NCBI RefSeq assembly: GCF_000165505.1
Contig: NC_014632.1
Coordinates: 930,001-994,000 of the forward strand
Length of the DNA: 64,000 nucleotides
Direction of reading: 5' to 3'
Source: Ilyobacter polytropus DSM 2926
Lineage (GTDB): Bacteria; Fusobacteriota; Fusobacteriia; Fusobacteriales; Fusobacteriaceae
This document shows, one piece after another, positions 9,516 to 21,937 of the stretch; within the stretch, counting starts at the first letter, position 1; each line of letters opens with the position of its first letter. The translations under genes and the position numbers were made by a program. Under the pieces are notes generated by a model that made no database searches, was not told the origin of the DNA, and saw only the letters and a program-made list of their open reading frames with translations.

Positions 9516-10283
9516 ATGAAAATAAAAGTCGCCTATTATACAGGTATAGGAAACACAAGGGAAAATAATGAAGATTCAATATTAATCTATGACAATGTAT
9601 ATTCAGAATCAAATTTTGAGGATTTCAAATTAAGAGAGATAGACGTGGACGAAGGATTTTTCTCTGTTGCAGATGGTCTCGGTGGCCATGCAGGGGGGGA
9701 GATAGCAAGTGCTAGTGTACTCAAATGTTTAAAAAACTGCAGAGTTGGAGGAAATAAAGAACTAAAAAAAATATTTAAAATGGCCAATGACAAACTAGGG
9801 AATCTGGCAAATAAAACAATAGAACTTTACGGTATGGGGACTGTCTTGACGGGGGTTTACTTAAAAAGAGATAAAGCTATTATTTTTAATATAGGAGATA
9901 GCAGGACTTATTTTATGAGAAAGAATCTCATAAGGATGACAGATGACCATTCTCTAGTGTGGGAACTAGCTAAAAAAGAGGAGTTTGAAAATGAGGCCGA
10001 AATGCACAACTGGATAAGAAAACACCCTAGGAAAAATATTGTCACTTCTGCATTGATTGCTGGTTCAGATGAATTTGAATCTTCTGTCGAAGAGTTAGAG
10101 ATAAAAAAAAGAGATAAATTTTTTATCTCAAGTGACGGTGTGTGGGAGGAGTTGTCATTTAATGAAATTGAAGATTTTCTTTCTGAGGAGTTGAACACAG
10201 CAGCAGAGCTTATACTGGAAAAATGTAAAATAAGGGGAAAAGACAATATCTCCTTTGTAATAGTTGAAATTATTTATGTTTAG
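9516..10283 (+). CDS. PP2C-family serine/threonine protein phosphatase
   Basis: 255 residues with the metal-binding motifs of the PPM/PP2C family in order: TRENNEDS near the N-terminus, VADGLGGHAGGE near 46-57, GDSRTYFM near 127-134 and DNISFVIVE at the end. The product removes phosphate from Ser or Thr of proteins. Bacterial PP2C genes often pair with a PknB-type kinase, but none is present here; methionine aminopeptidase follows 9 bases later and is probably co-transcribed. SD ggaggtga. Confidence 0.9.
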   Translation: MKIKVAYYTGIGNTRENNEDSILIYDNVYSESNFEDFKLREIDVDEGFFSVADGLGGHAGGEIASASVLKCLKNCRVGGNKELKKIFKMANDKLGNLANKTIELYGMGTVLTGVYLKRDKAIIFNIGDSRTYFMRKNLIRMTDDHSLVWELAKKEEFENEAEMHNWIRKHPRKNIVTSALIAGSDEFESSVEELEIKKRDKFFISSDGVWEELSFNEIEDFLSEELNTAAELILEKCKIRGKDNISFVIVEIIYV

Positions 10284-11119: not shown

Positions 11120-12109
11120 TTAAAATGAAAAACTATTTTTAAGTTCCACTTTTTCTTTTTTAAATAGAAGGTCTATTGCCTTAAACATAGCGGATTTTCT
11201 AGAACTTACATCATAGGAACTGGCCGATGCAGTTTTACTTATGATATATGAATCCATCTCTTTATTTTGTGCAGTTATAGATAGATTAATAAAGGCTTCA
11301 AATCTCTCTTTGGTAATAGGTTTGTTGTTATATAAAATAGGTTCCTTTTTGTCGATAACATATGAGTTAACATTAATGTTGAAAATTGTATTTACATTTT
11401 CATCCATATCATTTACTATGGCAAGTTTTTTTGACGAGGTTTGAAAAATTTCTGTTATCAGATCATCGGCTTTGTTTTTTATATAGTCATAAGATTCGCT
11501 GGGAAAGTCTCCTGTAATAGATACAAAAACTATTCTAGGGGCATCTAATATGTTGTTTACATTGTTAAGTTGATTTCTTAACTGGGCCTTTGTGTACTGA
11601 ATGGAAAATACTTTTTCACTTCCAAGTATAGAGGCCATATTTTTATAATTATCATATAGTTCAAAATCAGAGATGCTTTTTTCTAAAAGTTCCTTTTTTT
11701 GAAGTAGGCTGTCAGTTTTTTCAACTTTTGATATATTTAAATATATCTCATTTTTGAGAGCAGATACTTTATTTTCATATAATGGAAGTTTTTTATCACT
11801 TATAGATGCACGTACTCTATATTTTTTTCTTAGGAAATATTTTTTAACCTTATATTCAACTCCTAAAAGTTCATTTTTAGAAAAAAGATTTACATTGTTT
11901 TTTAGATTTTTTTCCATTTCTCCATTTTTTAATGTTTTTTCACTGGAGTAGTTGCTTTCTACTGTAACCCTTATCTGTTGAGAAAGATTGTTTAGAGCGT
12001 TTTCCCTGGCTTCTTTTTCAGTAGAACCATATCCTGTGCCGACTATGTCACTAGCTAAAGCTAGAGTAAATAAGGCTATGCTAAAAATAAAAATTAAAAT
12101 TTTTTTCAT
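11120..12109 (-). CDS. Secreted LPP20-like protein with a C-terminal alpha/beta region
   Basis: 329 residues from the ATG at 12109, which has the SD aaagga; an ATG three codons upstream overlaps that SD. A signal peptide (KKILIFIFSIALFTLALA) precedes a domain with VGTGYGSTEKEAREN ALNNLS, the pattern of the LPP20/FlgP family. The second half (APRIVFVSITGDFP onward) looks like a separate alpha/beta domain, loosely recalling FlgT or CsgG-type folds. It lacks a lipobox Cys, so it is probably periplasmic. It lies just downstream of another LPP20-like gene, with a terminator between them. Exact function unknown. Confidence 0.6.
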   Translation of the reverse strand: MKKILIFIFSIALFTLALASDIVGTGYGSTEKEARENALNNLSQQIRVTVESNYSSEKTLKNGEMEKNLKNNVNLFSKNELLGVEYKVKKYFLRKKYRVRASISDKKLPLYENKVSALKNEIYLNISKVEKTDSLLQKKELLEKSISDFELYDNYKNMASILGSEKVFSIQYTKAQLRNQLNNVNNILDAPRIVFVSITGDFPSESYDYIKNKADDLITEIFQTSSKKLAIVNDMDENVNTIFNINVNSYVIDKKEPILYNNKPITKERFEAFINLSITAQNKEMDSYIISKTASASSYDVSSRKSAMFKAIDLLFKKEKVELKNSFSF

Positions 12110-12161
12110 TGGAATCATCCTTTCAGATAAATTAAATTGATATTTGTAGGGCTTAATTATT

Positions 12162-12184: not shown

Positions 12185-12724
12185 CTAATTGAAAAAGTTT
12201 TCTAATTCTTGATGTAGTCTGTCTCCAGCTTCATCAGCCTTTAATTTTATAAGTTCCGGATTTGTGGAGGTATCAATATTATTTACAGCTTTTTCAGCTG
12301 ATCGTATTATATCTTCATTGTCAACGACCATCAATACATAGAGTTCTCCTTGAGGATTTTCCCAAGCCTCGATAATCCGTGAATTGAAAAGGTCTTGACT
12401 AACAATATCCTCATAAACTTCTTCTACCATCTTATCAATTGCGGCATTGTCGCCTATCCCGGCCTTGGTAGTATAAGATTTTAAAGTAGAATTAACTTTG
12501 AGTCCTATCTGCTTGGCAAGATCAGCCCTTGCATTAGCCATAGCTTCCTTTCTGGCAAAATCAAATCCTAACTCTGTGATCTTAGATGAACCTACACCGG
12601 CAATTCCTTTTTTGTAGCTTGGTCTAAGCACCCAATCTGGATATTTCTTGTTTTCAGAATAATCCACACTAGAACATGCAACAGCAAGAAAAAGTATGGC
12701 TATCGAAAAAATAAGTTTTTTCAT
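12185..12724 (-). CDS. LPP20 family lipoprotein
   Basis: 179 residues from the ATG at 12724, which has the SD gggaggag; the longer frame reaching 12790 has no support. The start MKKLIFSIAILFLAVACSS is a lipoprotein signal with Cys as the likely lipidated residue. Then come PDWV, a GVGSSKI turn and ARKEAMANARADLAKQI, hallmarks of the LPP20 family first described in Helicobacter. Members are outer-membrane-associated lipoproteins, sometimes tied to flagella, but no flagellar gene is in the window. It probably acts in the envelope with the related protein downstream. Confidence 0.75.
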   Translation of the reverse strand: MKKLIFSIAILFLAVACSSVDYSENKKYPDWVLRPSYKKGIAGVGSSKITELGFDFARKEAMANARADLAKQIGLKVNSTLKSYTTKAGIGDNAAIDKMVEEVYEDIVSQDLFNSRIIEAWENPQGELYVLMVVDNEDIIRSAEKAVNNIDTSTNPELIKLKADEAGDRLHQELENFFN

Positions 12725-12894
12725 AAGACTCTCCTCCCTTCTTATGGGAAGTATACTTTTTACCAAATACAAAGTCAATAAAATCCCCATAATAATTGCT
12801 TAAAGGTATGGTATATGTTATACTTTTTTTGAAAAATTCTGTTGAAAAACAATGAAATTTAGAAGAAAAAAATTAAGAAAACGGAGGAAAAAAA

Positions 12895-14832: not shown

Positions 14833-15099
14833 TTGAAGAAAAGAATAGTTTTTTTTAGACTTATGTTGTTGCTATTTTTGATAGCTGCTCCGTTGTATCT
14901 ATTTAGGATAGTTTATTTTCATTGCAAGGTTCATGTTTTAGAGCGGTCAGTTAGAAAAGAGAATTTGATCAGTAAAATACGAGAAAACTCTCTGACAAGA
15001 AATGAAGATTTTTTGGAAAATAAAAACTATAGAATTGCCCTTGAAAAATTAGAAAAAGAAAAACTACAAGTGGAAGGAGTTGTGATAGTTGAACAATAG
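14833..15099 (+). CDS. Small single-pass membrane protein of unknown function
   Basis: 88 residues from a TTG start. The SD caggaggct lies inside the end of folC, so translation is probably coupled. Residues 4-30 form one membrane segment; the rest is charged and predicted helical (RKENLISKIREN, ALEKLEKEKLQ). The layout resembles small bitopic division proteins such as FtsL or DivIC, but no sequence motif proves it. Its last 11 bases overlap the start of the hprK gene. I do not recognise the family. Confidence 0.55.
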   Translation: MKKRIVFFRLMLLLFLIAAPLYLFRIVYFHCKVHVLERSVRKENLISKIRENSLTRNEDFLENKNYRIALEKLEKEKLQVEGVVIVEQ

Positions 15100-17044
15100 A
15101 ATAATTACTCATAAATCGATATCTATAAGAGAGATTATATCAGAATTCGATCTAGAAGTTGTATGTGAGGGAAATCTAGACTATGAAATGACAACCCCAA
15201 ATATAAATAGGTCAGGCCCTGAATTAACTGGTTTTTTTGATGAGAATTCAGATATTTTAGACTCATATATTCAGGTTTTCGGGAATGAAGAAATGACTTA
15301 TTTAAAAAGATTAGAGGTCGATAAAAGAGTTGAAATTTTAAATAAATATTTTTCTTATGCTTTTCCAGCAATAATACTGTGTGACATAGATACAATCGAT
15401 GAAAAATTTCTTGAAATAGCTGAAAAAAACAATAAAAGTCTTCTCAGAAAAAAACAAAGAGCCAGTGTATTTATAAGGGATATCAAATACTTTCTCCAGA
15501 AAAAACTTGCTTCAGAGATGATGCTAAATGATCATATACTCTTAGAGATTTTTGGTATCGGAATTCTGATCACAGGAGATGTAGATGCAAAACAAGGTGT
15601 TACCATAGAGCTTATCGAAAGAGGGCATAAATTTATAACAGATAATAATGCTATTCTGAAAAAAACTGGAGATGACAAACTTGTAGGTGAAAACAGGTTT
15701 GATAAATCATCAGATTCTGAACACTTTTTTTTAGTTCATAAAGGTGGTGGGAAGATAGATCTAACTGATACCTTTGGATTGGGATCCACAAGAAAGGAAA
15801 AGCAGATAAACCTTCTTGTAAATCTTGAAAGATGGAATGAGAGAAAATTTTATGACAGACTTGGTTTAGATCAGGTTTTTGAAGATTTTCTAGGGATAAA
15901 AATTCAAAGGCTGACTCTTCCTGTACGTAAGGGAAGAAATCTGGCGGTTATTTTGGAAACAGCTGCAATAAATCACAGGTTGAAAAAATCTGGAGTTAAT
16001 TCAGCAGAGTATTTTTTAAATGAAACTAAGAAATTAATATTAGAAAATAAAATGAGAAATCAGGGAGAAGAAGGTATGAAAAACCATATATCTTTATCAG
16101 TCAATGATTTAAAGAAAAAGTTTAATTTAGAAGTATTATGTGGCGAGGACAAGTTAGAATCTGCTTTTATTTATAAAACCAGTATTCATCGACCTGCTCT
16201 GGCTCTGTCAGGATATTATGACATGATAGATGAGGATGGATCGGATAGGCTGCAGGTTTTTTCTGAAGGAGAGTTTAGATACTTAGAAAGTTTGGATGAA
16301 GAAACAAGAAAGAAAAATCTCGAGACTTATTTAGATTACAATTTTCCAGCTATAATTCTTTCTAAAATAGATGATATACCAAAATATTTTATAGATGCCA
16401 TAAAGGAAAAAGGAAGAATACTTCTCAGATATAATAAGAGCAAAACCAGTCAGATTATAGCCGATTTCAACTCGTTTCTTGAGACTTATTTTGCACCTTC
16501 TATTACACTACACGGTGTATTTGTAGAGATGTACGGTTTTGGGGTCTTACTAACAGGTAAAAGTGGAATAGGTAAAAGTGAAACTGCTCTTGAGCTTATA
16601 CACAGGGGACACAGGCTTATAGCAGACGACATGGTTAAGTTTATAAAGCACCCTAGTGGAGATATTTTGGGAAGAGCGGCTAAACTACCTCATTTCATGG
16701 AAATAAGAGGACTCGGTATTATTGACATAAAGGCTCTTTATGGTTTGGGGTCCGTGAGACTTACAAAAAGACTAGATGCCATACTGGAATTGAGGGAGTT
16801 AAAATCTGATGAATACCTTACTTCTACGAAGTACTCTGGAGGATCAATAGAACTCCTTGAAAGTTCAGTACATAAGGCAGAATTATATATTTCATCAGGA
16901 CGTAATGCTGCCGCTATGGTTGAGGTAGCGACTATGAATCTAATGGCAAAAAAATTGGGGCATGATCCTGAGAAAGCTTATGAAGAGAGTTACGGTAGAT
17001 TTACAGAGGAAGAAAAAAGAATCCTGGATTTTCAGGAAAATTAA
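15089..17044 (+). CDS. hprK: HPr kinase/phosphorylase, tandem fusion of a degenerate and an intact copy
   Basis: 651 residues, about twice the usual 310-320, made of two HprK repeats. The C-terminal copy (about 330-651) has catalytic His475, Walker A GKSGIGKS (490-497), Asp513/Asp514 and EIRGLGIID. In the N-terminal copy (1 to about 325) the matching positions are Asp148 and GDVDAKQG (163-170), and the RGLG loop reads KGGG, so it cannot bind ATP normally. Yet it keeps PVRKGRN (278-284), which has decayed in the C-terminal copy. HprK controls carbon catabolite repression through Ser46 of HPr. Translation starts at TTG, overlapping the previous gene. An internal ATG at 16076 with a good SD could give the C-terminal copy alone. 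Confidence 0.87.
   Translation: MNNRIITHKSISIREIISEFDLEVVCEGNLDYEMTTPNINRSGPELTGFFDENSDILDSYIQVFGNEEMTYLKRLEVDKRVEILNKYFSYAFPAIILCDIDTIDEKFLEIAEKNNKSLLRKKQRASVFIRDIKYFLQKKLASEMMLNDHILLEIFGIGILITGDVDAKQGVTIELIERGHKFITDNNAILKKTGDDKLVGENRFDKSSDSEHFFLVHKGGGKIDLTDTFGLGSTRKEKQINLLVNLERWNERKFYDRLGLDQVFEDFLGIKIQRLTLPVRKGRNLAVILETAAINHRLKKSGVNSAEYFLNETKKLILENKMRNQGEEGMKNHISLSVNDLKKKFNLEVLCGEDKLESAFIYKTSIHRPALALSGYYDMIDEDGSDRLQVFSEGEFRYLESLDEETRKKNLETYLDYNFPAIILSKIDDIPKYFIDAIKEKGRILLRYNKSKTSQIIADFNSFLETYFAPSITLHGVFVEMYGFGVLLTGKSGIGKSETALELIHRGHRLIADDMVKFIKHPSGDILGRAAKLPHFMEIRGLGIIDIKALYGLGSVRLTKRLDAILELRELKSDEYLTSTKYSGGSIELLESSVHKAELYISSGRNAAAMVEVATMNLMAKKLGHDPEKAYEESYGRFTEEEKRILDFQEN
16063..16078 (+). 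promoter_or_regulatory. Possible internal ribosome binding site inside hprK
   Basis: GGGAG (16063-16067) lies 8 bases before an in-frame ATG (16076-16078) exactly between the two HprK copies. Starting here gives 322 residues, the length of an ordinary HprK. Confidence 0.45.
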
Positions 17045-20221: not shown

Positions 20222-21130
20222 ATGAAAAAAATATTTGCGTTTTTTCTAATATTACTTACAATAACAGCTTGCAGTAAGACTACAAGTACTGTAAAAAAGG
20301 ATGACAAAATTCAAAAGCTAAGGGAGTATGATGAATCTAAGGAACAGGCTGGACCTAAGAGAAAGATAGTCATAGGCAAAGTCAAAAATGAAACAAGATT
20401 TGGAAATAAAAGACTTGGAGATATAGCAAAGGATGTTTTGATAGCTGAATTTTCCAAGACCAATAAGTTTATCGTTTTGGAAAGAGAAGATCTTGATGCT
20501 GTAATGGAGGAAACCGAGTTTTCCAATGCACTTGGACAGGGTATTATTTCCGGTCAGCAGCAGTTTTTAGATGCGGAATATGTAATTGTCGGTTCAATTA
20601 CAAAATATGCAGTAAATACGACAGGTTCAAGTAAAATAATTTCTAAATCAAAGGAACAGAGAGCAGAAGTGGCAATTGATATCAAAGTTATTGATGTTAG
20701 AACTGGTAAAGTTTGGAGTGAACTTGGAGAAGGTTATTCTACTGTAAAATATGGAACAACTTTTGGTGTAGGAACTTCAGGAGGGTATGATGAAAGTCTT
20801 GAGCAGGAGGCTTTTAGAGCTGCCACGATTGATTCTATGGAAAATATTATCGAGAGAATTGATAAGACACCGTGGAGTGCAAAAGTAGCAAAAGCATATT
20901 CAAATAAAATAATAATTAACTCAGGGAAAATAAGTAATCTAAAATTAGGGACTAAGCTAGATGTTTTTAAACAGGGAGAAAAAATAGAATTTGAAGGAGA
21001 ATTTTTAGGGTATATAGAAGAAAAGAAGGGAACAGCCAAAATAATTGATTATATGGGTGAAGACGCAGCCATTGCAGTTTTTGACGGTGAAAAATTTGAC
21101 CTTCCGGCAGTAGTAAAAATTAAAAGATAG
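20222..21130 (+). CDS. CsgG/HfaB family outer-membrane lipoprotein
   Basis: 302 residues. The signal MKKIFAFFLILLTITACSK ends in a lipobox. The CsgG-type core follows: KIVIGKVKNETRFG, then DVLIAEFSKTNKFIVLERE, and further on AEYVIVGSITKYAV. CsgG proteins form outer-membrane pores, best known from curli secretion. No curli subunit or CsgE/F gene is present, and the next gene encodes a GNA1162-like lipoprotein, a pairing known from other Gram-negative bacteria. It may form an envelope pore or assembly factor of unknown cargo. Confidence 0.85.
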   Translation: MKKIFAFFLILLTITACSKTTSTVKKDDKIQKLREYDESKEQAGPKRKIVIGKVKNETRFGNKRLGDIAKDVLIAEFSKTNKFIVLEREDLDAVMEETEFSNALGQGIISGQQQFLDAEYVIVGSITKYAVNTTGSSKIISKSKEQRAEVAIDIKVIDVRTGKVWSELGEGYSTVKYGTTFGVGTSGGYDESLEQEAFRAATIDSMENIIERIDKTPWSAKVAKAYSNKIIINSGKISNLKLGTKLDVFKQGEKIEFEGEFLGYIEEKKGTAKIIDYMGEDAAIAVFDGEKFDLPAVVKIKR

Positions 21131-21139
21131 GGTGTTTTT

Positions 21140-21937
21140 ATGAGAAGAGGAGTAATAACAACTATCCTTCTCCTGATTTTTTTTACAGGATGCAGCAGCA
21201 GAAGAATGGTGCGACAGAGTGAGACAAATGTTTCTCCTGCAAAACTTGCTATTTTACCTATAGACAACCTGACAAATGATGTATCAGGGGCAGAGGTTCT
21301 AAGGGAGGTTATCTATGCAGCTTTTATTGAAAATCCCAAAGGCTACGAGGTTCAGCCTATGCAAAAGACAGATGAACTTTTGCTCAATGAGGGTATAACT
21401 GATGGGGGGCAGCTTTCACTTGTTCATCCTATAGAACTTTCTGAAATTTTAGGAACAGACGGACTTCTTTATATAAAACTCGAAGAACTTTCTCTTATAA
21501 CTTTGCCTTTTTATCATGTTCGAAAAATAGATATGACTTACAGAATGTATAATATGGGAAAGCTTTACATCGAAGAACCTCTTGTTGTTGCCAATAGATT
21601 TTTAGATATAAACGGTATTTTAAAAACTATAGATGATCCTTCAAACGGACTAGCTTATGCTGGACAAGGGATTGCTATACACCAAGGTCTTAGATTTATA
21701 ACAGCAGGTCTAGGAAAGCATGAGTTAAGACCTGAGATGGGAATGATCTCATTAAAATTATTAAAAACACTGCCTATTGGTTTAGCAGGCAGTGAAGAAT
21801 ATATACAAGAGGTTGAAAAAGAGATATTGAAACTCAGGGAGAAATTTAAGAATAATGAAAATATTCTTCCTGATAATCTGGAAAATGAATATATTGAGAA
21901 AAAAATCATAGAAGATGGTATTCAATTAATAAATTAA
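21140..21937 (+). CDS. GNA1162-like (DUF799) lipoprotein
   Basis: 265 residues. The N-terminus RRGVITTILLLIFFTGCSS has a lipobox with Cys as the likely lipid-anchored residue. The body fits the DUF799/GNA1162 family: AILPIDNLTNDVSGAEVL near the start, then LGTDGLLYIKLEE. These putative lipoproteins usually sit next to a CsgG-like gene, as here, with a 9-base gap. It ends the long operon; no clear terminator follows, but sepF has its own leader. The function of the pair is unknown. Confidence 0.75.
   Translation: MRRGVITTILLLIFFTGCSSRRMVRQSETNVSPAKLAILPIDNLTNDVSGAEVLREVIYAAFIENPKGYEVQPMQKTDELLLNEGITDGGQLSLVHPIELSEILGTDGLLYIKLEELSLITLPFYHVRKIDMTYRMYNMGKLYIEEPLVVANRFLDINGILKTIDDPSNGLAYAGQGIAIHQGLRFITAGLGKHELRPEMGMISLKLLKTLPIGLAGSEEYIQEVEKEILKLREKFKNNENILPDNLENEYIEKKIIEDGIQLIN

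Follow-up and report, generated by a model that had tools for sequence, protein, structure and literature searches.

What becomes of a shared active site when two subunits of an enzyme are joined in one chain? The question is raised by a 651-residue open reading frame (ORF) with a TTG start at 15089-17044 on the forward strand of a 64,000-nucleotide window, i.e., the whole stretch of DNA analysed, from Ilyobacter polytropus DSM 2926 (contig NC_014632.1, positions 930,001 to 994,000). This ORF consists of two complete repeats of HPr kinase/phosphorylase (HprK/P), an enzyme of bacterial sugar control that usually assembles as a ring from identical subunits and, besides acting as a protein kinase, catalyses the reverse reaction with phosphate. 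A first-pass annotation, made from the sequence alone, had described two HprK repeats in one chain, and both halves indeed match Hpr_kinase_N followed by Hpr_kinase_C, far above the Pfam cut-offs (E=1.3e-30 and 5.6e-40 in copy 1; E=5e-31 and 2.4e-50 in copy 2). These E-values rule out chance similarity of the copies to HprK. The whole protein (520.1 bits) and copy 2 alone (290.8 bits) also pass the TIGR00679 equivalog cut-off of 240, with copy 1 alone just below it (234.9 bits). As set out here, the fusion is probably a covalent pseudo-heterodimer in which each pair has one composite site that is live and one reciprocal site that is dead, its likeliest substrate being the HPr paralogue here called HPr-(i). 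Its domains and site elements are as follows.

15089..17044, forward strand: hprK-hprK fusion ORF (651 aa; TIGR00679, 520 bits over two stretches)
15119..15496, forward strand: copy 1 N-terminal domain, Hpr_kinase_N, residues 11-136 (Pfam)
15506..16021, forward strand: copy 1 C-terminal domain, Hpr_kinase_C, residues 140-311 (Pfam; AlphaFold model against 1KO7, Z 27.2)
15575..15598, forward strand: copy 1 dead P-loop GDVDAKQG (alignment; one residue shorter than a true P-loop)
15833..15865, forward strand: copy 1 flexible-loop region W249...YDR257LG with the equivalent of catalytic Arg245 (alignment; role from PMC9399212)
15920..15940, forward strand: copy 1 retained K3 loop PVRKGRN, residues 278-284 (alignment; role from PMC9399212)
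15941..16060, forward strand: copy 1 C-terminal helices, residues 285-324 (predicted secondary structure; the equivalent part contacts HPr in trans in the homohexamer)
16097..16480, forward strand: copy 2 N-terminal domain, Hpr_kinase_N, residues 337-464 (Pfam)
16490..16987, forward strand: copy 2 C-terminal domain, Hpr_kinase_C, residues 468-633 (Pfam; best structure match 1KKM, Z 26.2)
16511..16513, forward strand: copy 2 His475, equivalent to His140 (alignment)
16556..16579, forward strand: copy 2 P-loop GKSGIGKS, residues 490-497 (alignment)
16625..16630, forward strand: copy 2 Asp513-Asp514, equivalent to Asp178-Asp179 (alignment)
16700..16717, forward strand: copy 2 E538-IRGLG, the Glu204/RGLG loop (alignment)
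16886..16906, forward strand: copy 2 rebuilt K3 loop YISSGRN, PV[RK]x gone and GRN retained (alignment)

The evidence for a divided site comes from an alignment of copies 1 and 2 of 64 full-length fusions, found in as many Fusobacteriota genomes, with 62 single-domain enzymes from Bacillota, Bacteroidota, Spirochaetota and others. Residues are numbered after the Enterococcus enzyme (L084), in agreement with the published His140, P-loop 155-162, Asp179, Glu204, Arg245 and K3 266-271. In the window, copy 1 carries N147 for His140, GDVDAKQG for the P-loop, N186 for Asp179 and V216 for Glu204 and has no RGLG, while W249, Y255, R257 (Arg245) and PVRKGRN at 278-284 are retained. Copy 2 retains H475, GKSGIGKS, D513-D514 and E538-IRGLG, and has L571 for Trp237, S579 for Arg245 and YISSGRN for PVRxGRN. 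The degenerate first copy, described earlier as keeping PVRKGRN without P-loop, catalytic His or RGLG, recurs in all 64 fusions: His140, the P-loop, Asp179 and E204/RGLG are gone, Trp237, YDR245LG, the PVRxGRN (K3) loop and the C-terminal helix remain, and copy 2 is the mirror image.

When positions conserved in at least 90% of the 62 single-domain enzymes are scored, copy 1 has lost 17 positions in 136-215 that copy 2 retains (among them H140, G141, S157, G158, G160, S162, E163, D179, E204, R206, G207 and G209), with none in reverse, and copy 2 has lost 12 in 235-300 that copy 1 retains (E235, W237, Y243, D244, R245, G247, P266, I276, A281, R285, N292 and A294), again with none in reverse. 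Chance does not explain this pattern, since every one of the 29 one-sided losses lies where the split would place it (Fisher p=1.9e-8), and the proposal that the features of one subunit are split between the copies holds at 17:0 and 0:12. Independent support for the split comes from phmmer, whose best alignment to 1KO7 joins the N-side of copy 2 (337-562) to the C-side of copy 1 (228-328). One detail of the first-pass annotation has to be revised, namely that the PVRKGRN segment had decayed in copy 2. PV[RK]x is indeed lost there, but the segment has been rebuilt as YISSGRNAAAMVE rather than decayed, because GRN is invariant in 64/64 fusions and YISSGRNAAAMVE is strongly conserved.

The solved HprK/P homohexamer offers a simple reading of this division. 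HPr lies there between two subunits, with the substrate site made of Arg245, Thr294, Leu301 and Ile305 of one subunit and His140', Ser157', Asp179', Arg180', Ile198', Leu199' and Glu204' of the other, and the P-loop has the neighbouring subunit's K3 loop packed beside it (PMC9399212). One subunit thus gives His140, the P-loop, Asp179 and Glu204, and its neighbour gives Arg245, K3 and the C-terminal helix (PMC9399212). As the same residues play those roles in the hexamer, copy 1 retains exactly the trans set and copy 2 exactly the cis set (PMC9399212). An ancestral duplication and fusion would have come first, after which the two reciprocal copy 1/copy 2 sites would have diverged. The site built from the catalytic part of copy 2 and the trans part of copy 1 would have stayed under selection, and the reciprocal site, with the catalytic part of copy 1 and the trans part of copy 2, would have been freed of it, so that copy 1 could lose its catalytic half and copy 2 its trans half. 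One live and one dead reciprocal site would explain both the losses in each copy and their complementarity. We infer that the fusion is enzymatically active, that the trans part is supplied within the fusion and that a pseudo-hexamer forms, in which three chains would give three live and three dead sites. The substrate would most likely be HPr-(i), phosphorylated on Ser46 and then dephosphorylated by phosphorolysis.

A natural reduction of the fusion supports the composite site as well. In one genome (G067; family f4, genus g20), an intact ORF of 269 aa (L269 5612-6421, G067:C10) sits between the mtn/SPOR-type and nrnA-type genes and encodes a protein without both N-terminal domains. Its first part is a short copy 1 remnant with NWNKEEHFDRLG (W..FDRLG), IPIKKGRD and the C-helix, and its second part is copy 2 SVHGVLLEINGTGTLIMGKSGVGKSE...FIADD...EVRGLG, including SVHG and GKSGVGKS. 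Pfam gives two stretches of the same domain, and in the genome search profile positions 98-169 precede 6-118. The parts spared by the deletion are those that the composite-site model needs. The earlier proposal of an active site to which each half contributes is, though short of proof, strongly supported by the match of the retained residues to their trans and cis roles, by the phylum-wide split and by this shrunken form.

Both halves are predicted to have the HPrK fold (Z 25-27 against 1KO7 and 1KKM). The AlphaFold2 model of the whole fusion has a predicted local distance difference test (pLDDT) of 87.1 and a predicted template modelling score (pTM) of 0.75, and among solved structures it best resembles, through copy 2, 1KKM, 1KKL and 1KO7 (Z 25-26). 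Modelled alone (pLDDT 90.3), copy 1 matches 1KO7 at Z 27.2 over 283 residues, so the prediction for it is a complete HPrK fold whose nucleotide site is dead.

The likely substrate can be narrowed down from the HPr proteins themselves, of which Fusobacteriota have two main types. In I. polytropus, HPr-(i) (HARPSS...NGKSIMGLM) adjoins its own enzyme I, ispH and rpsA, and HPr-(ii) (HTRPG...SLLKVLS), which also has Ser at 46, adjoins another enzyme I and fructose-type genes. Residue 46 of HPr-(i) is Ser in 38/38 sequences from hprK genomes, including that with the shrunken form, and Asn in 16/16 from genomes without hprK; several of the latter gave HPr-(ii) only, and the few second HPr matches there (e.g. 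G076, G081, G091 and G094) were left out of the count. This association with hprK supports the composite site with HPr-(i) as its substrate. As to the read-out, CcpA (TIGR01481) passes the NCBIfam cut-off in 0/98 Fusobacteriota genomes and in 2/14 named control genomes. Since CcpA stays below the cut-off in all 98, phosphorylated Ser46 would need some other mode of action, for instance a block of phosphotransfer on HPr.

Two further observations concern these proteins. The I. polytropus chromosome (G000) carries two complete enzyme I-HPr pairs (L266 6033-8078 and L267 3264-5351), one with ispH/rpsA and Ser46 in a KSIMG context and one with fructose-type genes. In genus g25, a third HPr-like protein has Arg at 46 (KRILSLLKLG; L231, L240 and L241 in G088-G090).

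The composite site has to be weighed against other accounts of the fusion. Had copy 1 merely been decaying since the duplication, the absence of its P-loop, His and RGLG loop would be accounted for, yet its positions 235-300 are more conserved, phylum-wide, than in single-domain enzymes (mean entropy 0.87 vs 1.44 in the flexible loop and 1.02 vs 1.46 in the helices); on this conservation mere decay is scarcely credible and was rejected. Copy 1 could instead be a purely structural or allosteric pseudo-subunit that holds the oligomer or senses metabolites, with the active sites lying between copies 2, as many pseudo-subunits have regulatory roles, the predicted structure of copy 1 is a complete HPrK fold, and copy 2 keeps GRN and Glu278. 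Such a role is improbable, though, as Arg245, Trp237, YDRLG and PV[RK] of K3 are gone from copy 2 in essentially all 64 fusions, so that a copy 2-copy 2 site would miss Arg245 and half of K3, whereas copy 1 keeps these residues at 94-100%, and the shrunken form retains the trans residues and not a sensing domain. A shade less probable again is a fusion that acts on another protein or metabolite and no longer on HPr. The missing classical Firmicutes read-out, with no CcpA over the cut-off in 98 genomes, would fit such a change of substrate, but Ser46 in its canonical KSIMG context tracks the presence of the gene.

Several points nevertheless tell against the composite site itself. Copy 2 retains GRN and part of the C-helix, and may make some use of its own K3 region; the trans roles come from structures of Firmicutes enzymes via one paper (PMC9399212); the pTM of the fusion model is no proof of copy 1-copy 2 pairing; and the shrunken form is known from one genome, whose assembly is 88% complete. 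The Ser46 association (raw Fisher p=5e-14, which ignores ancestry) amounts to one or two evolutionary events, the Asn46 rows forming two clades. With regard to activity, the first-pass annotation had also suggested a changed kinase/phosphorylase balance, which finds no direct support here. A composite site would contain every element that either reaction needs, among them the K3 loop with its link to the phosphorylase; more simply, one would expect the number of sites to be halved and each to have both activities.

The fusion is widespread and old. PF07475 is present in 69/98 Fusobacteriota genomes, comprising the 64 full-length fusions, four genes cut by contig ends or frame-broken (G013, G056, G060 and G061) and the one shrunken form, and a single-copy HprK was seen in none of the 98. 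The full-length fusions span 18 genera in families f1, f2, f3, f4 and f6, and the gene is missing from most members of f4. In a quick tree, all copies 1 group in one clade and all copies 2 in another (Shimodaira-Hasegawa-like approximate likelihood ratio test, SH-aLRT, 99), which points to a single fusion no later than the base of the phylum as sampled. Outside Fusobacteriota, the 76 loci L077-L152, flanks included, have one copy each and no double HPrK; L076 is a fusion from Fusobacteriales. Weak extra Hpr_kinase_C matches below the Pfam cut-off occur in two genomes of genus g6 (G031:C1:105640-105831 and G033:C2:163792-163932, in ORFs of 309-313 aa).

The fusion as such is a known form in this phylum, as Comas et al. 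2008 report that, among 222 genomes, F. nucleatum was the sole one with a tandem HPrK (PMC2405797). The main text of that paper does not describe the complementary residue loss, the internal start treated below, the shrunken form or the Ser46 association (PMC2405797). The site split and these other features appear undescribed in the literature searched, which covers few subscription journals, so that reviews in such journals may already mention the split.

The border between the copies may also serve as a second start of translation.

16063..16078, forward strand: putative internal ribosome-binding site GGGAG (16063-16067) and in-frame ATG (16076-16078), copy 2 start (sequence; candidate second start)

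A Shine-Dalgarno-like site with an in-frame ATG, GTG or TTG is found at this border in 64/64 fusions, and it is the best in-frame start within the gene in 44 of the 64 and among the top 10% in 62. Against other windows of the same genes, this greatly exceeds what chance would give (combined p about 1e-22 over 18 genera), and the start codon switches among ATG, GTG and TTG yet stays start-capable. This could mean that two products are made, the fusion and a free copy 2 from 16076 that would alter the make-up of the hexamer, which would add to the composite site rather than replace it. However, a synonymous-codon null for the strength of the Shine-Dalgarno-like site was not rejected (p=0.09), i.e., ordinary codon usage often yields such strength given the linker residues, so the signal would be written via the choice of these residues; a pause site at the domain border or a constraint on a Gly/Glu-rich linker may be at work instead. 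The two products are thus a close call that leans slightly to the negative. It could further be speculated, as a rather doubtful scheme when taken whole, that the enzyme is an obligately asymmetric kinase/phosphorylase, each fused pair having one live site and one that is dead, in which the dead site and the rebuilt K3 loop of copy 2 (YISSGRNAAAMVE) form a regulatory pocket, the internal start gives a free copy 2 that tunes assembly, and natural deletion in one lineage has reduced the enzyme to a minimal, permuted kinase whose trans part precedes its catalytic part.

The fusion is the sole HprK gene of the I. polytropus genome (3,132,314 bases, 3 contigs), and its start overlaps the 3' end of an 88-aa ORF lying upstream.

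15074..15079, forward strand: Shine-Dalgarno AAGGAG of the fusion (sequence)

Its neighbours are, in order, mtn, folC, a small ORF, the fusion, a YitT-type gene, folB, folK and an nrnA-type DHH gene, and parts of this order are found again in most genera tested. A PP2C-type protein phosphatase gene lies a few genes upstream of the kinase (9516-10283), and lipoprotein-like genes flank the operon (11120-12118, 12185-12790 and 20222-21937; weak LPP20 match; CsgG domain).

The split-site fusion is real, old, conserved and informative. Compared with known HprK/P (TIGR00679, PF02603+PF07475; 1KO7, 1JB1, 1KKL, 1KKM and 1KNX), each half has the same two-domain fold, the catalytic residues are the same, and Ser46 of HPr is presumably the common substrate. 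Known enzymes are, however, homo-oligomers with the whole residue set on every subunit, whereas the fusion divides this set between two copies. The tandem HPrK recorded for F. nucleatum is the same phylum-wide fusion (PMC2405797). The cooperation of the six shared sites of HprK/P is hard to study because any mutation hits all subunits; with the site halves on separate copies, each half can be mutated alone and half-site behaviour becomes directly testable. The fusion also shows clearly how two joined genes can degenerate in complementary ways, for which the natural minimal version provides an internal test. We know of no such pseudo-heterodimer, with one live and one dead site, for a bacterial P-loop protein kinase/phosphorylase. 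Pseudo-heterodimers of this kind are the C1/C2 pair of mammalian adenylyl cyclase and the nucleotide-binding domains (NBD1/NBD2) of asymmetric ATP-binding cassette (ABC) proteins, each with one live and one dead composite site. Their folds are unrelated to that of HprK/P, yet the logic is the same, i.e., a shared site, duplication, complementary loss and one live site.
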